Assembly: GCF_029626025.1 (NCBI RefSeq)
Contig: NZ_JARUBF010000001.1
Span: 4,464,001-4,528,000, forward strand
Direction of reading: 5' to 3'
DNA from: Solwaraspora sp. WMMD406
GTDB lineage: Bacteria > Actinomycetota > Actinomycetes > Mycobacteriales > Micromonosporaceae
Length of the DNA stretch: 64,000 nucleotides
Under the pieces are notes generated by a model. The model had not been told where the DNA came from. It saw only the letters and a list, made by a program, of their open reading frames with translations, and searched no databases. The number at the start of each line of letters is the position of its first letter. Position 1 is the first letter of the stretch. Positions 13,284-39,269 of this stretch are shown here, piece after piece. The position numbers and the translations under genes are program-made.

Positions 13284-14447
13284 TCAGCGCTCTGCCCGCT
13301 CAGCTGACGGCTCGTCGAAGAGCCCGGCCAGGCCGGCGACGGCGAGGCTACGGCGTACGTAGGGCTGCGGCCGGGCCAGCCGCAGGCGTATCCCGGCCCG
13401 ACGCGCCACCTCCTGGCTGGCCAACAGAGCGGCGACCCCCGAGGCGTCCACGGACGGTACGCCGTCGAGGTCGACCAACACCTCGGTCTCGGCGCAGGTG
13501 CGTACGGCGTCGGCCAGGCCGAGACGGACCTGCTCGGCCGAGTCCCGGTCCAGATCGCCGCGCACCGTGACCCGGACGCGGCTGCCGGCGCGGTCCACCG
13601 ACAGGGTCAGCGACGCGACGTTGTCCGGTTGACCGGTGCCGGACTCCCAGCGGGGCGGGGAGTCGGTCAGCATCGCCTGACGCAGCCAGGTCAGGGTCCG
13701 GGAGAGCAGCCGTGAGACGTGCATCTGGGAAATGCCGAACTCAGCGGCGATGTCGGACTGCGTGTAGTTGCCGTAGAAGCGCATCGCCAGGATCCGACGT
13801 TCCCGGGCCGGGAGCCGGTAGAGCAGGTCGCTGACGGTCAGCCGGTCGTCGACCGACTCCAGGTCCGCGTCGAGTGCGCCGAACATGTCACCGAGTTCGG
13901 CCGGTCCGTCGTCACCCACCGGCCCGTTGAGCGAGGCGGGCGTGTAACCGGCGGCCGACTCCAGCGCGGCGAGGATGTCCTCTTCCGAGGTCTCCAGTCG
14001 CGCGGCCAGCTCGGCGACCGTCGGTGACCGGGACAGTTCACTGGTCAGTACGGCGGTCGCCTGGCTGACCTCGATGGTCAGGTCCTGGAGCCGACGGGGC
14101 ACGTGCACGCCCCACGTACGGTCCCGGAAGTGCCGCTTGATCTCGCCGGTGATCGTCACCGCCGCGTACGCGGTGAACGAACCCCGCTCCGGGTCGTAGC
14201 GGTCGACGGCCTTGACCAGGCCGAGGCGGGCCACCTGCTCCAGGTCCTCCAGCGGCTCGCCCCGTCCCCGGTAGCGGCGGGCGAGACGACCGGCGAACGG
14301 GAGCGCGAGTTGGACGAGCTCCTCGCGTGAGCCTCGGCGTTGGTTCTCCGCCTGGTCGGCGAAGCGGGCCGCGTAGGACAGCGCGGCACCGTCGAGATCT
14401 TCCAGTACGTGTTCCGAGCGCGTTGCTGTACGCTTTTGTCCGGACAT
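13284..14447 (-). CDS. SigB/SigF-family RNA polymerase sigma factor fused to a C-terminal STAS domain
   Basis: This is a 387-residue protein. Residues about 40-270 form a group 3 sigma factor. Region 2 has FAGRLARRYRGRGEPLEDLEQVA and DRYDPERGSFTAYA; region 3 has WGVHVPRRLQDL. Region 4 has ERRILAMRFYGNYTQSDIA followed by the helix-turn-helix ISQMHVSRLLSRTL. After a short linker, residues about 282-380 form a STAS domain (RVRVTVRGDLDRDSAEQVR, VLVDLDGVPSVDASGVAALL) like anti-sigma-factor antagonists. The residue after the conserved Asp is Ala (D-A-S-G), where classical SpoIIAA/RsbV antagonists have the phosphorylated Ser. The ATG at 14447 follows GGGAGGGG. No anti-sigma kinase gene adjoins it. 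It is a natural candidate to read the GGGTAY promoters in this window. Confidence 0.93.
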   Translation of the reverse strand: MSGQKRTATRSEHVLEDLDGAALSYAARFADQAENQRRGSREELVQLALPFAGRLARRYRGRGEPLEDLEQVARLGLVKAVDRYDPERGSFTAYAAVTITGEIKRHFRDRTWGVHVPRRLQDLTIEVSQATAVLTSELSRSPTVAELAARLETSEEDILAALESAAGYTPASLNGPVGDDGPAELGDMFGALDADLESVDDRLTVSDLLYRLPARERRILAMRFYGNYTQSDIAAEFGISQMHVSRLLSRTLTWLRQAMLTDSPPRWESGTGQPDNVASLTLSVDRAGSRVRVTVRGDLDRDSAEQVRLGLADAVRTCAETEVLVDLDGVPSVDASGVAALLASQEVARRAGIRLRLARPQPYVRRSLAVAGLAGLFDEPSAERAER

Positions 14448-29950: not shown

Positions 29951-29975
29951 GTTTCAGCACTGGTCCGGGGGGTAC
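29951..29975 (+). promoter_or_regulatory. SigB/SigF-type promoter of the OsmC-like gene
   Basis: GTTT (29951-29954), a 15-nt spacer and GGGTAC (29970-29975) match the stress sigma consensus exactly. The predicted start is near 29982, 26 nt before the ATG, leaving room for the GAGGGGG ribosome binding site. Confidence 0.65.
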
Positions 29976-31502: not shown

Positions 31503-33995
31503 TCAGCCGGAGCTGACCCGGCGTAGCCGGGGCATCCGCACGACGTTCGCCCCGGAATGCAGGCTCGGCGCCAGCGTTCCCGCGACCCCGTCACGTCCCT
31601 TACGGAGGGTGTCGAGCACATCGGTCAGACCGGCCGCCCCGGGCCAGAACAGCCGGCCCTGGCCGGCGGTGCAGCCCATCTCCCACAGCAGCCGGCGTTG
31701 GCCCGTCGTGGCCACGCCGGTGGCCACCACCAGATTCGCCAGATCACGTCCGAGTCCGACAAGCGAAGGAAGCGCGGCCGGCGAGTTTCCCGAAGCCGCC
31801 AGCGCCGGATGGTCGATCTTGACCAGGTGGACCGGGATCCGCAGGAGCGCCGCGAGCGAGACGTCGGAGGTGCCGAATCCGGCGAAGGCGATCCGGACTC
31901 CGTCGTCGTGCAGCTGGTCGAGGGCCCTGGTGGCCAGGTCCGGACAGTTCGCCCCGCCGGTCTCGGTGAGCTCGATGATCAGCTGGTCGGCGGCGATTCG
32001 ATGAGCCGCCAGCCGCTGCCGGATCTCGGTGGGGAACGCCGGGTCGAGCAGGCTCCGCGCGGAGACGCAGACCGACACCGGAAGGCGGAATCCGGCGTCC
32101 TGCCAGACCCGCGCCGCCGCCAGCGACCGGTCGACCATGCTCCGGGTGAACTCGGCGAGCAGTCCGGACCGCTCGACCAACGCCAGCATCCCGGTGGCCG
32201 GCTGGTCACCGAGCTCCGGCTGACCCCACCGGACGACCGCGTCGACGCCCAGTGCCGCCCCACTACCGAGATCGACGATCGGCGCGAAGCCGATGTCGAA
32301 CCGGTGTTCGCTGACCGCACCGGGAAGTTCACCCCGCAGCGCCAACCGGTGTGGATCAGCGGTGTCCCGGCTGCGGTCGTACCGGGCCAACGCCCGTCCG
32401 GCATCCTTGGCCTGGTACATCGCCACGTCGGCCCGGCGCAGCATCTCCTCGGTACTCGAGCTGCCGTTGGCGGTGGCGAGACCCGCGCTGGCCCGCAGGC
32501 TCACCCGGATCCCGTCGAGGTCCATCGGATCGCGCAGCACCTCGAGGATCTGGCGGGCGTCGTGTTCGGCCCGAGCCGGCGCGGAGTGCCCGTCGAGGAT
32601 GACAGCGAACTCGTCGCCGCCCAGCCGGGCCACCAGGCCGTCACCCGCCGCCCCGCGTAGCCGGTTCGCCACCTCGATCAGGACCTGGTCACCGGCGGAA
32701 TGGCCGAGGGTGTCGTTGACCTCCTTGAAGTGGTCGAGATCGATGAGCAACAACGCCGTACTGGGCAGACTCCGCCGGTCGGCCAGTGCCGCCCCGAGGC
32801 GGTCGCGCAGGTGGCGGCGGTTGGCGAGGCCGGTCAGCGGGTCGTGGGTCGCGTCATGTTCGTGGCGGGCGGCGAGTTCGGTGGCCTGCGCGTACGCGAT
32901 CGCGTTGCGGATCGCCGTGGTGAGCGCCGCGCCGAAGGTGCGCAGCGTGTACCGCTCCCGGTCGGACAGCCCGGCGGTCGGCAGGACCAACCGCAGCACA
33001 CCCGGACCGGTCGGTTCCGGTCCGATGGCGCCAAGCGGCACCGTGACGGGTTCACCAGCGGAGGGTGGGCCGCCGGCTCCGGCCGGGCCGTCGTACCGTA
33101 GGCCGTGCTCATCGCCCCGGATCAACCGGCGTTGCCCGGCGTACTGGAACTCGATCTCGACCAGCCGCGCGGAGAACAGCCGGGCCGCTCCGTCGATCGC
33201 GGTCCGCAGCACCACGTCGAGGTCGACGGTGTTGAGCGCGTCGGTGGTTTCGGCCAGCTGCCGCCAGGCCGAGCGCTCCTCGCCGAGGTGCAGCCGCCGC
33301 CGATATCCGGAGTGCAGCAGCAAGACCGCGAGCGGGGTGGCCACCAGCAGTCTCGCGTCGATGGCGGTCACCAGCACCGTGGCCAACGCCAACACCAGGG
33401 TCGCGGCCTTGACGCCGGCGCGAACGCGGGCACCCCGCTGGACCACTCGCCGCCAGGGGGTCCGGTCGGCCAGCGCGACGACCGGCACCGGTACGGTCTC
33501 GTCGACCACGGCGTAGACGAGTGCGGCGGCGCACAGCGCCACCACCGTGGTCGGCCAGGAGTCGGCGAGATGTCCGGTGGAACCGAGTACCGGGGTCAGC
33601 CCGATCCAGCCGGCGGTGAGCGCCGCGGCGAGTGCGGCGATGGACTCCTTGGCGGCGGCGAAGGCGACCTTCGCGGGCGCGGAACCGACGACCGACCGAC
33701 CGACGCCCACTCCGACAGCGGTGCAGACGACCACCCAGTGTGTCGGCAGCACGGCCACCGACACCAGCACCGCCGCGCTGGTCGAGGAGATGCCCTGAGG
33801 GGTACGGGTACGGATGGGCACGGTGCACCCGCTGGCCACGGCGACCAGGCTGGCCAGCACCACCGGGTAGTAGAGGGCCGGACGGCTGGGTGGTGCCTCG
33901 ATCCCGGACACCGCCCATGCCACCGTCACCAGGCCACAACAGACGATCAGACCGACGATCGGCGCCAGCCGCCGGTCCATCCCGTCGCTACGCAC
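31503..33995 (-). CDS. Membrane GGDEF protein with degenerate EAL domain
   Basis: This is an 830-residue c-di-GMP-type protein. About seven or eight N-terminal membrane helices (residues 10-230) precede a GAF-like region (about 245-370). A GGDEF domain follows (about 385-545) with the intact signature RLGGDEFAV and DLDHFKEVND, predicting diguanylate cyclase activity. The inhibitory RxxD site is absent (AGDG). The C-terminal EAL-like domain has lost key residues: VDAV in place of EAL, AGFGTS in place of DDFGTG, and ATGVAT in place of AEGVE. It is probably catalytically dead. The GTG at 33995 has a GCGAGAG site. Confidence 0.88.
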   Translation of the reverse strand: MRSDGMDRRLAPIVGLIVCCGLVTVAWAVSGIEAPPSRPALYYPVVLASLVAVASGCTVPIRTRTPQGISSTSAAVLVSVAVLPTHWVVVCTAVGVGVGRSVVGSAPAKVAFAAAKESIAALAAALTAGWIGLTPVLGSTGHLADSWPTTVVALCAAALVYAVVDETVPVPVVALADRTPWRRVVQRGARVRAGVKAATLVLALATVLVTAIDARLLVATPLAVLLLHSGYRRRLHLGEERSAWRQLAETTDALNTVDLDVVLRTAIDGAARLFSARLVEIEFQYAGQRRLIRGDEHGLRYDGPAGAGGPPSAGEPVTVPLGAIGPEPTGPGVLRLVLPTAGLSDRERYTLRTFGAALTTAIRNAIAYAQATELAARHEHDATHDPLTGLANRRHLRDRLGAALADRRSLPSTALLLIDLDHFKEVNDTLGHSAGDQVLIEVANRLRGAAGDGLVARLGGDEFAVILDGHSAPARAEHDARQILEVLRDPMDLDGIRVSLRASAGLATANGSSSTEEMLRRADVAMYQAKDAGRALARYDRSRDTADPHRLALRGELPGAVSEHRFDIGFAPIVDLGSGAALGVDAVVRWGQPELGDQPATGMLALVERSGLLAEFTRSMVDRSLAAARVWQDAGFRLPVSVCVSARSLLDPAFPTEIRQRLAAHRIAADQLIIELTETGGANCPDLATRALDQLHDDGVRIAFAGFGTSDVSLAALLRIPVHLVKIDHPALAASGNSPAALPSLVGLGRDLANLVVATGVATTGQRRLLWEMGCTAGQGRLFWPGAAGLTDVLDTLRKGRDGVAGTLAPSLHSGANVVRMPRLRRVSSG

Positions 33996-34401
33996 CGTAG
34001 CTCTCGCCTCGCTTCCTGGCCGAACAGAACCATCTACATAAGCCTCGCGTCAGCGTCTCATAACTCACCGTCCATAGAACAGGTCCGGAGTCACAGCCAA
34101 TCGTTGTCACGCATCTCGCCACCTCCTCCGATCTACTCGATGCAGTGGAAGGATAAGCAACGTAAGTACCGGTTGGTATAGCTAAATGTCTTTTGCCCCA
34201 CTAATCGACTATTATTGCTAAATGAGCGCAGAGCGCCTTTAGGAACCCACGGGACCACATCGGATACTCCGCGACACCACTTTCCAAAGTGATCAGTGCA
34301 CAACGGATGAATCCGAGACGAACCCGGACGACACCTCGGCCGTCAAGGCACGATCGGAACCCCACCCATCACCACGAACTCCGCGCCCGACGGGCGAACC
34401 A
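33996..34401. other. 406-bp intergenic region with an AT-rich core
   Basis: Between the GGDEF gene start and the B12-sensor gene stop, both on the minus strand, bases 34010-34250 are strikingly AT-rich for this genome. They include TATAGCTAAATG and TTATTGCTAAATG, a GCTAAATG direct repeat. It presumably holds the GGDEF gene's promoter; no clear hexamer pair and no coding frame were found. Confidence 0.6.
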
Positions 34402-35439
34402 TCACCCTCGCGCCACTGACCAGAGCGCTCGCCGACCCGCACGCAGGAAGGCACCCGCCCGAGGGAAATCACGAAGAGTCTCGACATAAACACTGAGGGT
34501 TCTCATCACGCCGGCAACGGACACTCCGCGAGCGGCGAGTACGTCGCGTGTCCACCGCATCGACTCGGTGAAAAGCTGCTCGTCGTCCACATAGACGGCG
34601 GCGGCCAGGAAGTCGACGATATGCCCGAGGTCGGCGACGGTCGCGTCCCATTGGGCAACCGTGTAGTCGGCGACGCTCGGTTGCCTGCGCCGCAGGTCGT
34701 CCAACCCCAGATCGATGATCTCGGCCCGTCGACTGATGAGTCCGACGTACTCCTCGCCGCCGAGCGAGCCGGTCCCGGTGCCCGGCCCGGAGAGCGCGTC
34801 CCCACCCTCGGCCAGCAGATCGGCGGCCCGGCGGGCGTCCGACGCCCAGACCACCCCGAGCTTGCGGGCCCACCGCCCGTCCGGACCGAACCCACGCCCA
34901 CCCACCAGGATCGGCACGTCCGCGCGGCGGCACGACTCGATCATCCGGTGTGCTTGGGGAAGTCGCATCGGCAGCGCGCAGGCCAACGCGAGCGCGGACG
35001 CGTCATGACGATGCAGGTACCCCATCAGGTGCACGGCCGGCACGCTGGCCCCCAGAAAGGTGACCTGCCAACCGCGCAGCCGTAGCACTTCGGCGACCAG
35101 CCGGGGTGGCAGGGCATGCCACTCGCCGTCCATGCAGGCCACGATCACCCGGCCCCGGTACGGCCGTGGTGCCGACCTGGTGGTGACGGCGGAGACCACC
35201 AGCTCACTGATGTGGGTCGCGGCGTGTTCCTGAGCGACCGACCACTCGTTGCTCTGCCACCAGCGGCCCACCTGGACCTGCGCCGGTACGATCAGCTCCA
35301 ACAGGACCGATTCCGCCGCGACCCCGGTGGTGAGCAGTTCGTCGGCGAGTTCCAGCGCACCGATCTCGTCCGCCGCCGCCAGACAGGACAGAAAGGCTGG
35401 ATAGGCGCTAGCCAGGTCTAAGGTGGACGGGGCCGCCAC
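34402..35439 (-). CDS. Cobalamin-binding sensor protein (CarH-like B12 domain) coupled to a SpoIIE phosphatase
   Basis: This is a 345-residue protein. Residues about 10-85 form the helical cap of a B12-binding module with W61-x9-E71-H72, the signature of the CarH adenosylcobalamin photoreceptor. Residues about 95-215 form the Rossmann part, with E106-W-H108, where the His is the expected lower cobalt ligand, then GWQVTFLGASVP and a glycine-rich VPILVGGRGFG. There is no MerR DNA-binding domain. Instead a C-terminal helical domain (residues about 225-340) resembles the sensor helices of RsbR-type stressosome proteins, by general pattern only. The residue after W61 is Gln, whereas CarH has the light-state His ligand there. 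Its GTG start overlaps the phosphatase stop (TAGTG), so the two are translationally coupled. Confidence 0.85.
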   Translation of the reverse strand: MAAPSTLDLASAYPAFLSCLAAADEIGALELADELLTTGVAAESVLLELIVPAQVQVGRWWQSNEWSVAQEHAATHISELVVSAVTTRSAPRPYRGRVIVACMDGEWHALPPRLVAEVLRLRGWQVTFLGASVPAVHLMGYLHRHDASALALACALPMRLPQAHRMIESCRRADVPILVGGRGFGPDGRWARKLGVVWASDARRAADLLAEGGDALSGPGTGTGSLGGEEYVGLISRRAEIIDLGLDDLRRRQPSVADYTVAQWDATVADLGHIVDFLAAAVYVDDEQLFTESMRWTRDVLAARGVSVAGVMRTLSVYVETLRDFPRAGAFLRAGRRALWSVARG

Positions 35440-37259
35440 TACCGGCCTGCCTCCGGTTTCGCCGGGCCCGAACCGCCTACCGGGTTCGCCTGGGAGGGAC
35501 CGGTACCGGTGATCGTGTCGGGCACCGCGTGCAGGTGCCGACCGCGTGCCCTCGATGACGGCCGATCGGCACGGACCGCGAACACGGCGATGTCGTCGTG
35601 TTCGCGACCCGCCAGCCAGTCACCGGCCAGCTGTTCGACCCGCTCGGCGAGCGCCGGGGCCGGCATCCGGTGACAGCCGCGCAGGGCGTGGACGAGCCGG
35701 CTGAGCCCGTACTGCTCGTCGCCGTAGCGACCGCCCCGGGCCTCGGTGACGCCATCGCTGTAGAGCAGGCAGGTCTCCCCCGCCGCGAGATGCACGGCGA
35801 CCTGACCGATCCGGGGATCCGGCACCACCCCGATCAGCATCCCGCTCAACGGCACCGGCTCGACCGTGCCGTCGGCGCGCAGCACAAGCGGCGGTAGATG
35901 GCCGCCGCCGGCGAGGGTCACGGTCACCCCGCCGTCGCGCCCCGGCTCGGCAACCCCGAGCACCATCGTCGCGAACCGGCCTTGACCGTGTGCCTGGGTG
36001 GTCTCCAACACCGACTCGTTGAGCAGCCGCAGCAGCTGCCTCGGGTCGGTCTCGACGTTACGCAGTGCCTGCAGGCCCTGCCGCACCTGGCCGGTGAAGA
36101 CGGCCGCCTCGACTCCCTTGCCGGAGACGTCGCCGAGGAAGAACAGCGTGTTGCCGTCCGAGAGGTCGAAGGCACCGTAGAAGTCGCCGCCGATCCGCAA
36201 CGACGACTGCGCCGGCCGGTACGCCGTACCCCATTGCAGCCCGGCGACCGGCGTGGGAGCGGTGGGCAGCAGGCTCGCCTGCAGAGTCTCGGCGATCTCG
36301 GACTGATGCCGGAAGAGCACCGCCGCGTCCAGCGCCGAACCGGCCCGGGCGGCGAAGCCTCGGAGCAGGTGATCGTCGGCGTCGTCGTACTCCGCCGGAC
36401 GAGATCGTACGACGACCAGCACCCCGGTCGGACGGGCACTGCCGGGCAGCCCGGTGATCCGCGGCAACGCCTCACCGGCCTGCGCCTCGGTCAGCCAGCC
36501 GACATCGACCAACTGTTCGGCGAGCCAGTCGACCGACGTGGGCTCGACCCCCGCCAATGCTTCCGTGAACGCTGGTGGCAGTTCGGCCATCGGCACCATT
36601 CCGCCGTCGACCTCGGGCCTGGTGCCCGCTGCCCCACCGCGCGCCCGCCACCACTGCGCCCGACCTCGGCGCGGAGCCAGGACCAGTATCGCCACCTCGC
36701 CCAGTGTCGGCACCGCGAGCCGGACCGCCGCACGGGCGGCGCGGTCCTCGTGCAAGGGGTTGCCGAGTTGCTGACTGGCGGTGGCCAGGAACATCCATCG
36801 CGCCCGTTCCGCGAGCAACGCGTCGGATCGGGCAGTCGAGTCGGTGGCGTCGTCGACGTACCAGCCGATCCGGTCCGGGCCGAGGGTCACCCGACGCAGC
36901 CGCAGCCGGTGCCCCCGGTGACTCAGCTCCGCCGGGGTGACCTCGGCGGCCATCGCGGCGGCCAGTCCGGGGATGCCGCTGGCCGCGACCACCTGGTCGG
37001 ACGCGAGTTCGGGCAGCAGCCGGCGAGCGGTCGCGTCAACGTGTCGGACCACGCCGGCACCGTCACAGACGACCAGGCCCTCCCGGAAGTTGTCGATCAC
37101 CGCCTGATCGACGATCGCCGGCTGGCGAAGCAGATCAGCCGGCGCGCACCGTACCCCGGCGGCGGGCAGGCCCGCACCGGAAGCCGTCGATGCCGTCGGC
37201 TCTGGTGCCCGGACCGACCCGTCACCCGAATCGCAATTCGTGACGTCGGCGGCGCTCAC
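35439..37259 (-). CDS. SpoIIE-type PP2C phosphatase with N-terminal PAS-like and GAF domains
   Basis: This protein of about 606 residues probably dephosphorylates a STAS anti-sigma-factor antagonist. A PAS-like region (IDNFREGLVVCDGAGVVRHVD) is followed by a GAF domain (about residues 150-320) and the PP2C domain (about 340-565). Metal-binding motifs are intact: RIGGDFYG, FLGDVSGKGVEAAVF, LAGGGHLPPL, LLYSDGVTEARG and HDDIAVFAV. There is no C-terminal HATPase kinase domain. The GTG at 37259 with GAGGAG 12 nt upstream is the tentative start. It is coupled to the B12-sensor gene downstream and divergent from a STAS gene, its likely substrate. Confidence 0.88.
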   Translation of the reverse strand: MSAADVTNCDSGDGSVRAPEPTASTASGAGLPAAGVRCAPADLLRQPAIVDQAVIDNFREGLVVCDGAGVVRHVDATARRLLPELASDQVVAASGIPGLAAAMAAEVTPAELSHRGHRLRLRRVTLGPDRIGWYVDDATDSTARSDALLAERARWMFLATASQQLGNPLHEDRAARAAVRLAVPTLGEVAILVLAPRRGRAQWWRARGGAAGTRPEVDGGMVPMAELPPAFTEALAGVEPTSVDWLAEQLVDVGWLTEAQAGEALPRITGLPGSARPTGVLVVVRSRPAEYDDADDHLLRGFAARAGSALDAAVLFRHQSEIAETLQASLLPTAPTPVAGLQWGTAYRPAQSSLRIGGDFYGAFDLSDGNTLFFLGDVSGKGVEAAVFTGQVRQGLQALRNVETDPRQLLRLLNESVLETTQAHGQGRFATMVLGVAEPGRDGGVTVTLAGGGHLPPLVLRADGTVEPVPLSGMLIGVVPDPRIGQVAVHLAAGETCLLYSDGVTEARGGRYGDEQYGLSRLVHALRGCHRMPAPALAERVEQLAGDWLAGREHDDIAVFAVRADRPSSRARGRHLHAVPDTITGTGPSQANPVGGSGPAKPEAGR

Positions 37260-37527
37260 CAGCCAGACCCACTCCTCACGTTCATCGACACGACCGCCGG
37301 CATCATGGTCACCGGGGTCACTACTCGTGCTCCACCCTACGCGGGTCACCGGCGACCGCCACCGGAGCGCAAAGCAACTACTCTCAGTTGAGATAACCAG
37401 GACACACGGCGATCGGCGCGCCATGGATCACCCGCCCGCCGCGCGAACCATCGCCACCGGGATTAGCCTGGTATGGGCCGGACCACGGAATCCCACCCGC
37501 CCGACACCGACGAGGGCGAGCGTCCGG

Positions 37528-37556
37528 TATCAGGCACAGGGTCCTGTTATCAGGCA
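37528..37556 (+). promoter_or_regulatory. Two TATCAGGCA direct repeats in the SpoIIE/STAS divergent region
   Basis: TATCAGGCA occurs at 37528-37536 and 37548-37556, 20 bp apart and so on the same face of the helix. They lie 15-43 bp upstream of the STAS start codon. The remainder of the 311-bp divergent gap (37260-37570) shows no GGGTAY promoter and no gene. Confidence 0.4.
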
Positions 37557-37570
37557 GAAAGGCAGAATCG

Positions 37571-37945
37571 GTGATTCCTGACGGCCGGAACGCCACAGCG
37601 ACACCCCTGGCGATGACTGTCGACACGACTACCGACGGTCAACCGGTGCTCCGGCTCTCCGGCGACCTCGACTTCCAGACGGCCACGACCCTGCGCGAGC
37701 AGATCGATCGACTGATGACGCGGCCACCGACCCGACTCGTACTCTCGTTCGCCGGGCTGCGCTTCATCGACAGCACCGGCTTGGCGGTTCTGGTGCACGC
37801 CTGGCGGCTGGCACATCCCCTCGGCACCCGGATCGAACTCAGCGAGGTTCCCGCGTTCCTTGCCAGCGTGCTGGACATCACCGGCGTTGGTGAACTGGTG
37901 AACCGACCGGCGGCCGCTGTCGACGACGACGCCAGCACCGCCTGA
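37571..37945 (+). CDS. STAS-domain anti-sigma-factor antagonist
   Basis: This 124-residue protein is a single STAS domain of the SpoIIAA/RsbV type: LRLSGDLDFQTATTLREQID, LVLSFAGLRFIDSTGLAVLV and RIELSEVPAFLASVLDITG. The D-S-T-G motif retains the phosphorylatable Ser. When unphosphorylated it should bind an anti-sigma kinase and release a sigma factor. The GTG at 37571 follows AAGGCAGAATCG. It is divergent from the SpoIIE phosphatase that probably activates it; no anti-sigma kinase gene is present in the window. Confidence 0.92.
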   Translation: MIPDGRNATATPLAMTVDTTTDGQPVLRLSGDLDFQTATTLREQIDRLMTRPPTRLVLSFAGLRFIDSTGLAVLVHAWRLAHPLGTRIELSEVPAFLASVLDITGVGELVNRPAAAVDDDASTA

Positions 37946-37983
37946 CGGCGGCGATGCCAGCGACTGGCCCCAGTGAGACCAGC

Positions 37984-38015
37984 CGGCGGTCGGAGACTGA
38001 AGACGCCGACCGCCG
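37984..38015. terminator. Bidirectional hairpin between the STAS and GT4 genes
   Basis: CGGCGGTCGG (37984-37993) pairs perfectly with CCGACCGCCG (38006-38015) around a 12-nt loop in the 108-bp convergent gap. Confidence 0.6.
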
Positions 38016-38053
38016 ACCGTTGGCTGAGGAGACGCCCCCGGCAGGAACCGCGG

Positions 38054-39196
38054 TCAGCCGGCCGCGACAGCGGGCAGCAACTGCTGACTCGACCGATCGG
38101 CCGCGTCGGCCACCTCACTGGGCGACAGCGGCATCGCACGCTTCCACCGGTGGTAGATCCGCTCGTATCGGGCGGCCATCAGATCCGGCGAGAAGGAATC
38201 CCGGACGTGGTCGGCGCAGACCGTCGGGTCGATCCCGCTCGCCTGCCGAATCCCGTCGGGAAGTTCCCTGGGATCCGTACAGATGATGCCGGTCTCACCA
38301 TGGCGGACCACCTCGGGTACGGCGCCCCGATTGAGCGCGACCACCGGAGTACCGCACGCCATCGCCTCCAGCATCACCATCCCGAAGGGCTCCTCCCAGC
38401 GGATCGGCATGAGTAGGCAGCGCGCCTCGGCCAACAGACCCCAACAGCGCTGGCGGTCGGGATTGACCAACAGTTCCACGTCCGGGCCGAGCATCGGACG
38501 GACGACCTCATCGAGGTAGCGCTGCTCCGACGGCTCGGTCGCCTTGCCCGCCAGGACCAACCGCGAACCCGCCTCGCGGCAGGCTTCGATCGCCAGGTCC
38601 GGACCCTTGTCCGCCGCGAACCGGCCCAACCAGAGCACCGGTCCGTCGGTGGGTGCCGGTTTAGCCGACACGTCGGTCGACAGCCCGTTGTGCACCGTTG
38701 CCGTCCAGGGCAGACCTGCCCCGACCCGGCGCTGGGCGTAGGAAATGGACACCAGGGCGACAGCACGGTCGATCCCGCGCAGATACTCGCCAAGTTCGCC
38801 GTCGGGTGAGTTGTGCACGGTCACCACGGTCGGTACCCGGCGTTGCGCCGCGGCCAACGGGCCCACCGTGGTGTGGTCGTGCACCACGTCGAAGCTGCGA
38901 TCCTCGATCAGCCGGTCCACCCGGGCCAGGTGCACCAGTTCGGGTAGCGAGTGGCCGAGCCGGTCGGCCTGCGGCTCCCGGACGGTGCTCACGAAGTTCG
39001 CGGCGGTGCCGGTCTTGCTGCCCGCGCCGAACAGGGTCACTTCGTTGCCTCGGGCGACCAGGGCGTCGACAAGCGCGGCGCACACCTGTTCGACGCCCCC
39101 GTACCCGGGTGGAGGCAGTTCGTAGTACGGCGGGACGATCATGGCGATCCGCAATGCCGTGTGGTGCTCGGTGTGCGTGGACGGGATCTCGTTCAC
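38054..39196 (-). CDS. GT4 family glycosyltransferase
   Basis: This 380-residue GT-B enzyme has an N-terminal acceptor domain beginning IAMIVPPYYELPPPGYGGVEQV. SFDVVHDHTTVG and VVTVHNSPDGELG follow. The donor domain has VLWLGRFAADKGPDLAIEA and WEEPFGMVMLEAMACGTPVV (E-x7-E). Donor and acceptor are unknown. The GTG at 39196 follows GGGGGTGCGCC. A GTTT-N16-GGGTAA element 48 bp upstream of the start suggests stress-sigma transcription. Confidence 0.87.
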   Translation of the reverse strand: MNEIPSTHTEHHTALRIAMIVPPYYELPPPGYGGVEQVCAALVDALVARGNEVTLFGAGSKTGTAANFVSTVREPQADRLGHSLPELVHLARVDRLIEDRSFDVVHDHTTVGPLAAAQRRVPTVVTVHNSPDGELGEYLRGIDRAVALVSISYAQRRVGAGLPWTATVHNGLSTDVSAKPAPTDGPVLWLGRFAADKGPDLAIEACREAGSRLVLAGKATEPSEQRYLDEVVRPMLGPDVELLVNPDRQRCWGLLAEARCLLMPIRWEEPFGMVMLEAMACGTPVVALNRGAVPEVVRHGETGIICTDPRELPDGIRQASGIDPTVCADHVRDSFSPDLMAARYERIYHRWKRAMPLSPSEVADAADRSSQQLLPAVAAG

Positions 39197-39243: not shown

Positions 39244-39269
39244 TTACCCGGCTACCGACGGATAAAAAC
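39244..39269 (-). promoter_or_regulatory. SigB/SigF-type promoter of the GT4 gene
   Basis: On the minus strand GTTT (39269-39266), a 16-nt spacer and GGGTAA (39249-39244) match the consensus except for the last base of the -10 box. The predicted leader is about 41 nt. Confidence 0.45.

Follow-up and report, generated by a model that had tools for sequence, protein, structure and literature searches.

The locus described here lies in a stretch of 64,000 nucleotides from Solwaraspora sp. WMMD406 (contig NZ_JARUBF010000001.1, positions 4,464,001 to 4,528,000; hereafter the window), which has a GC content of about 70% and comes from a genome of 7.16 Mb. It comprises a gene for a B12-binding protein, a gene for a SpoIIE-type phosphatase directly upstream on the same strand, and a STAS gene that is read away from this pair (Table 1). 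An earlier note, made from the sequence alone, had reported a TAGTG overlap of the SpoIIE and B12 genes and a divergent STAS antagonist with an intact D-S-T-G, and both are present: the GTG start of the B12 gene overlaps the SpoIIE stop codon, and the STAS protein, matched by Pfam and by TIGR00377, carries the string FIDSTGLAVL. From the comparisons presented below, it is likely that the B12 protein and the phosphatase are dedicated partners, encoded as a two-gene signalling unit in which light would act through the phosphatase on a STAS protein, and hence on a sigma factor.

By sequence, the B12 protein is a photocobilin, that is, a member of a family with two chromophores (PMC10979010, cited here and below from its available text). 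It stands alone and is predicted to consist of a four-helix bundle, a B12 Rossmann domain and a C-terminal bilin-binding globin domain. This identity is drawn from a full-length match to SasPcob, the stand-alone photocobilin of Saccharothrix syringae, from key residues at the same numbers, and from four signatures of light response. SasPcob is the best solved match (8J2W/8J2X, its dark and light crystal forms; E about 5e-98, residues 10-339), followed in the Protein Data Bank by the photocobilin part of AbDPcob (8J2Y, 3e-39) and by CarH entries (about 6e-10), and the C-terminal ~120 amino acids align to the globin domain with which photocobilins bind biliverdin. The two proteins are near-identical in length and domain order, and W61, E71, H72, H108, H137, D270 and W296 occur in the window protein at the SasPcob residue numbers. 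SasPcob binds adenosylcobalamin (AdoCbl) and biliverdin and is driven by light to monomerise; Trp61, Glu71-His72 and His108 are its AdoCbl residues, Asp270 and Trp296 its biliverdin residues, and His137 forms a putative cross-dimer salt bridge to biliverdin (Zhang et al. 2024, PMC10979010). GxxW, EH, GxxH and GxxxP, given in the available text of PMC11796333 as signatures of light-responsive B12 domains, are all four found in the window protein. Among 141 aligned loci, W61, E71, H72 and H108 are present in every one (141/141), D270 is kept in 130 and W296 in 138. The window protein differs from SasPcob in that it is a predicted photocobilin, and in that its pairing with SpoIIE has here been counted across many genomes. 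The Solwaraspora genome holds one strong match of this kind, and a second, weak one (E 8e-4, 26% identity).

The earlier note had called this protein CarH-like and devoid of a DNA-binding domain. The latter statement agrees with a Pfam scan at E 0.1, in which neither MerR nor any other DNA-binding domain appears; of the former, the B12 domains and the intact AdoCbl residues stand, while the bilin-binding globin domain had been overlooked. An identity as CarH minus its DNA-binding domain was rejected, since the alignment to SasPcob covers nearly the entire protein, globin domain included. The NCBIfam CarH model reaches 53.4 bits against a cut-off of 400. The AdoCbl photoreceptor CarH and the window protein share a B12 domain with W-x9-EH and the E/DxH motif (here E106-W-H108), whereas the window protein has no MerR domain, an extra globin domain, and a residue other than His at position 62. 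CarH has His at this position for its bis-His light state. In the counts for the 141 loci residue 62 is not His, which fits SasPcob, where the bis-His light state of CarH is lacking (PMC10979010).

The pairing with SpoIIE extends well beyond the window. In 131 of the 141 loci (window included), the gene directly upstream of the photocobilin gene, in the same orientation, encodes a SpoIIE protein, as is found in 40/40 loci of the family (chosen by hand among 190 matching genomes), in 80/80 named loci (the best 80 of 86, including Micromonospora, Actinoplanes, Dactylosporangium, Asanoa, Allokutzneria, Streptomyces carminius and Actinomadura hibisca), and in 10/20 loci of a phylum sample. This last sample was drawn from 48 match rows outside the family, 24 of which extend past query residue 300; 20 of these 24 were examined, and those left out (G660, G642, G308, G597) all lie outside the class. 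The ten positive loci are exactly those of the same order or class, and the ten negative ones lie outside the class. Some organisms occur in both the named and the family/phylum sets; the 141 loci represent 133 distinct sequences, and SpoIIE accompanies 123 of these. With 12 SpoIIE matches in a genome of 7.16 Mb, chance adjacency at 131 of 141 loci is negligible. The offset between SpoIIE stop and photocobilin start, for which a script accepted the first candidate start codon close to the stop, is -4 in 93 and -1 in 22 of the 131 pairs, so that the frames overlap by 4 bases or 1 base in 115/131.

Presence and absence follow the same pattern. Photocobilin occurs in 190 of 300 family genomes and in 18 of 44 genera; in the same 300 genomes the SpoIIE partner occurs in 189 (E 1e-60), and both occur in 186. 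Since four candidates were scored per genome, diverged SpoIIE partners are undercounted. Three of the four sensor-only genomes do have an adjacent diverged SpoIIE, and in the remaining one the sensor sits at a contig edge. The sensor of G254, too, lies at a contig edge. The photocobilin frame is in pieces in two cases (L039 and G136). The neighbourhood survey proposed in the earlier note thus finds the pair conserved, and adjacency together with joint presence ties the B12 sensor genetically to the phosphatase, as that note had supposed. Five genomes, four of Micromonospora and one belonging to a different family within the order, carry two photocobilins, and every one of these sensors is accompanied by a SpoIIE of its own; in the four Micromonospora, divergence between the copies is similar in the two partners (45-47% and 42-43% identity). 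When catalytic domains are arranged in a tree, 27 of 30 partner SpoIIEs fall into one group (support 93/86), and the remaining 11 SpoIIE matches of the Solwaraspora genome lie outside it; two changes are counted for the partner group, one of which is forced by the entry of the window gene in both groups. The distance matrices of the two partners correlate (r 0.953, with 0/999 permutations as high).

Regarding the phosphatase itself, the earlier note had described a PAS-GAF-SpoIIE protein. Its SpoIIE domain is clear; in the window protein the GAF domain falls below the cut-off and PAS has no Pfam match. Among 36 aligned partners, GAF (PF01590) is found in 18/36 and PAS_8 in 6/36, so that a PAS-GAF-SpoIIE architecture would be a reasonable reading of the alignment; the GAF profile matches DevS GAF chains. 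D414, D432, D557, D610 and D611 are invariant in the 36 sequences and putatively catalytic, presumably as metal-binding residues. The protein probably starts at GTG 37257-37259, giving 606 amino acids: GTG occurs at the corresponding place in 45 of the 50 relatives that have the ADV string following it, and in 16 of these 50 the open frame extends fewer than 20 codons further upstream. With this start, the gap between the STAS and SpoIIE genes would be about 310 bp.

Table 1. Features of the photocobilin-SpoIIE locus and its surroundings (window coordinates).
Feature	Position	Strand	Basis
Photocobilin open reading frame, 345 amino acids	34402-35439	-	Pfam; best Protein Data Bank matches 8J2X/8J2W; key residues
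B12-binding_2 four-helix bundle, residues 17-84, with W61 and E71-H72 (predicted adenosyl pocket)	35188-35391	-	Pfam; alignment
B12-binding Rossmann domain, residues 96-198, with H108 (lower axial ligand position) and G130-P134	34846-35154	-	Pfam; alignment
Putative photoglobin / biliverdin-binding domain, with D270 and W296	34420-34767 (limits approximate)	-	SasPcob alignment; residue counts
SpoIIE-type PP2C phosphatase open reading frame	35439-37424	-	Pfam; Asp residues invariant in 36 sequences
SpoIIE catalytic domain, residues 422-619 (Pfam limits)	35568-36161	-	PF07228, 144.7 bits
GAF domain	36327-36746	-	Below cut-off in window protein; seen in aligned partners
PAS-like N-terminal region	36855-37103 (limits approximate)	-	PAS_8 in aligned partners
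TAGTG, photocobilin GTG start overlapping SpoIIE stop	35437-35441	-	Read in sequence
STAS anti-anti-sigma protein, D-S-T-G	37571-37945	+	Pfam; TIGR00377 above cut-off
GGDEF-EAL protein, downstream of photocobilin	31503-33995	-	
GT4 glycosyltransferase, neighbour	38054-39196	-	Pfam
GTTT-N16-GGGTA, sigmaB/F-like promoter pattern before the glycosyltransferase	39245-39269	-	Pattern search
SigB/F/G-type sigma factor, Sigma70 r2, r3 and r4 followed by a C-terminal STAS fusion	13284-14447	-	

How could such a unit operate? In the dark, the photocobilin would bind AdoCbl, and probably biliverdin too, as a dimer. Light would break the cobalt-carbon bond and the dimer would come apart; the altered photocobilin would then act on the PAS-GAF-SpoIIE protein, probably at its sensor/linker region, and change the phosphatase activity. 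SpoIIE would in turn dephosphorylate a STAS antagonist, for which the divergent gene of the locus is the first candidate, and the STAS protein would bind an anti-sigma kinase encoded elsewhere, thus freeing a sigmaB/F-type factor. The action on SpoIIE, with its sign, is inferred, and so are the stress output and the parts given to STAS substrate, kinase and sigma factor. As to the contact site, SasPcob trans-activates a foreign diguanylate cyclase (PMC10979010), and a 2025 study argued that a dimeric coiled-coil linker common to PPM phosphatases and diguanylate cyclases allows their sensors to be exchanged (PMC12143880, available text); both point by analogy to the SpoIIE sensor/linker. STAS genes lie beside the pair in 85 of the 123 distinct loci, and 181 of 187 STAS matches carry the short motif DSTG or DSSG. 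In Micromonospora (L068:9833-10720 and similar loci), a STAS gene follows the photocobilin, often together with a gene for a single-domain response regulator; the response regulators form a cluster of 12 among the 41 loci that were clustered.

Parts of this scheme have counterparts in known systems. AbDPcob (8J2Y) is likewise a photocobilin that controls an enzyme, in vitro, whereas its enzyme is a fused GGDEF domain and not a separate SpoIIE encoded upstream (PMC10979010). In RsbT-RsbU partner switching (eLife 2025, PMC12143880), a separate protein also switches a SpoIIE-family phosphatase; here, in contrast, the partner is a photoreceptor homologue, and the locus holds neither kinase nor sigma factor. 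LOV and BLUF proteins with SpoIIE or STAS domains (PMC4844311, available text) equally bring light input to STAS/SpoIIE signalling, but they use flavin and hold sensor and effector in one protein, while the sensor is here separate and would use B12 and probably bilin.

The loci outside the class add a comparison between effectors. In five of the ten (L164, L165, L166, L169, L172), the frame immediately upstream is a separate one that carries GGDEF, and 23-376 bases lie between its end and the beginning of the photocobilin match. With SpoIIE upstream in the class and GGDEF upstream in these five, the photocobilin gene seems to come after that of the enzyme it controls. The bilin site varies in turn. 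D270 is kept in the Micromonospora first copies that were read, while A or G stands at 270 in the second copies (L149-L153); together with L156, L170 and L173, from another family of the order, these loci have Ala, Gly or Thr at this position, and each has its own SpoIIE. AbPcob, which has His at the D270 position, binds biliverdin poorly (PMC10979010), and the photocobilins of these eight loci may use B12 only. Tentatively, and as something possible rather than probable, photocobilins could be regarded as dedicated yet exchangeable light-controlled subunits of the enzyme encoded just upstream, a SpoIIE phosphatase in the window's class and a separate GGDEF cyclase in certain others, which in the window would give a B12/bilin light input to a sigmaB/F-type regulon, and in two-copy genomes a bilin-competent and a probably B12-only channel (D270 lost) tuned to different colours.

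Several observations weigh against a dedicated light-sensing unit of this kind. Although the one heme oxygenase of the Solwaraspora genome, a source of biliverdin, speaks in favour of it, and the enzyme is found in 175 of 300 family genomes, in Micromonospora PF01126 is detected in only 24 of 89 photocobilin-bearing genomes (16 strong matches), which makes the use of biliverdin there doubtful. STAS genes are missing nearby in 38 of the 123 distinct loci, five of them with incomplete flanks, and no anti-sigma kinase (HATPase_c_2) is found within 30 kb of the window locus, the 31 HATPase_c_2 matches of the genome (19 above cut-off) all lying elsewhere. Three family genomes (G130, G220, G238) have SpoIIE without a detected photocobilin: G130 and G220 (L176, L177) retain a STAS-SpoIIE-STAS arrangement with no photocobilin within the 8-9 kb read, and G238 has none genome-wide at E 1e-10, indicating that genomes can retain the phosphatase where the sensor is absent, and speaking against an absolute dependence on it. 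In the tree, three partner SpoIIEs, all of another family within the order, are placed outside the main group, and the 93/86 support of this group is below the level starred by the tree tool, and congruent distances between partners are also expected from plain vertical descent.

Does the photocobilin report light at all? It could instead signal the supply of AdoCbl, or a redox state, to the phosphatase, an explanation to which the uncertain biliverdin supply in many Micromonospora and the loss of D270 in second copies lend some weight, as does AbDPcob, in which AdoCbl binding in the dark lowers activity relative to the apo protein (PMC10979010). We consider it unlikely, as a pure cofactor sensor would have no need for W61 and E71-H72, invariant at all loci, nor for the largely conserved D270 and W296: W61 and E71-H72 hold the adenosyl group, and their helix moves on its loss in SasPcob (PMC10979010). 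A cobalamin riboswitch at the locus was considered and rejected, as neither it nor any other Rfam family matches above its gathering score in the window, which also speaks against a cofactor-supply role.

Alternatively, the phosphatase might respond to its own PAS-GAF input and act on an unlinked STAS protein, with the photocobilin merely co-transcribed and acting elsewhere, for example on the GGDEF-EAL protein. The gene of the latter comes after the photocobilin gene, in the same orientation, both in the window and in 5/5 congener loci, photocobilins control a GGDEF enzyme in vitro (PMC10979010), and SpoIIE persists in the three genomes mentioned above. Outside the genus, however, none of 35 family loci has a GGDEF-EAL gene directly following the photocobilin on the same strand, whereas SpoIIE is upstream in every locus of the class whose upstream flank was read; and where a GGDEF frame replaces it outside the class, it occupies the upstream position itself, as if this were an effector slot. 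Such a separation of sensor and phosphatase is considered still less likely than a cofactor-supply role, and the light-controlled photocobilin-SpoIIE unit is preferred. The GGDEF-EAL gene of Solwaraspora may additionally represent a second light output.

The photocobilin family, which is recently described, and its suggested stress role are already published: on the basis of a predicted interaction network, SasPcob was predicted to regulate stress by interacting with STAS and SpoIIE proteins, and the role of stand-alone photocobilins was termed 'less clear' (PMC10979010). In the literature found, SpoIIE together with photocobilin appears in this paper only, and the term 'SpoIIE' is absent from the available text of PMC11796333 and PMC10151467; the photoglobin neighbourhood data of Schneider 2022, outside the search, may show it. 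What is added here is the pairing count, the frame overlap, the shared duplication, the cases of sensor loss and the exchange of GGDEF and SpoIIE. If the proposed unit is real, ordinary actinomycetes would sense light by means of vitamin B12, and perhaps of a bile pigment, and set stress or developmental genes via a phosphatase. Through the conserved partner with its overlapping frame, stand-alone photocobilins could be tested directly on a defined enzyme and its substrate, and a separate phosphatase regulator under green/red light control would be useful in optogenetics.

As for the surroundings of the pair, no sigma-70 promoter or terminator patterns were found in 34000-38100. A sigmaB-like promoter in the STAS-SpoIIE gap was rejected as not convincing (found in 8 of 119 loci, and in 4 when each was shuffled once). 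Two genome matches to SigB/F/G-type sigma factors are above cut-off, the nearest being 20 kb away, in the window. A GT4 glycosyltransferase gene adjoins the pair or its STAS gene in 5/5 congener loci and is a possible output gene of the module, its membership being suggested by this position. The GTTT-N16-GGGTA string before it, which we take to match the sigmaB/F promoter consensus, is also seen by eye in the five congener loci. The GTTT-N-GGGTA pattern occurs four times in the window against 0.3 expected, and none of 100 shuffles reaches four. The string before the glycosyltransferase gene hints at a sigmaB-type regulon near the locus, without linking it to the pair itself. A further copy of the pattern (29951-29974, plus strand) lies at the 5' end of an open reading frame, presumably OsmC-like. 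Finally, short direct repeats (TATCAGGCA) occur in two copies, at 37528 and 37548.

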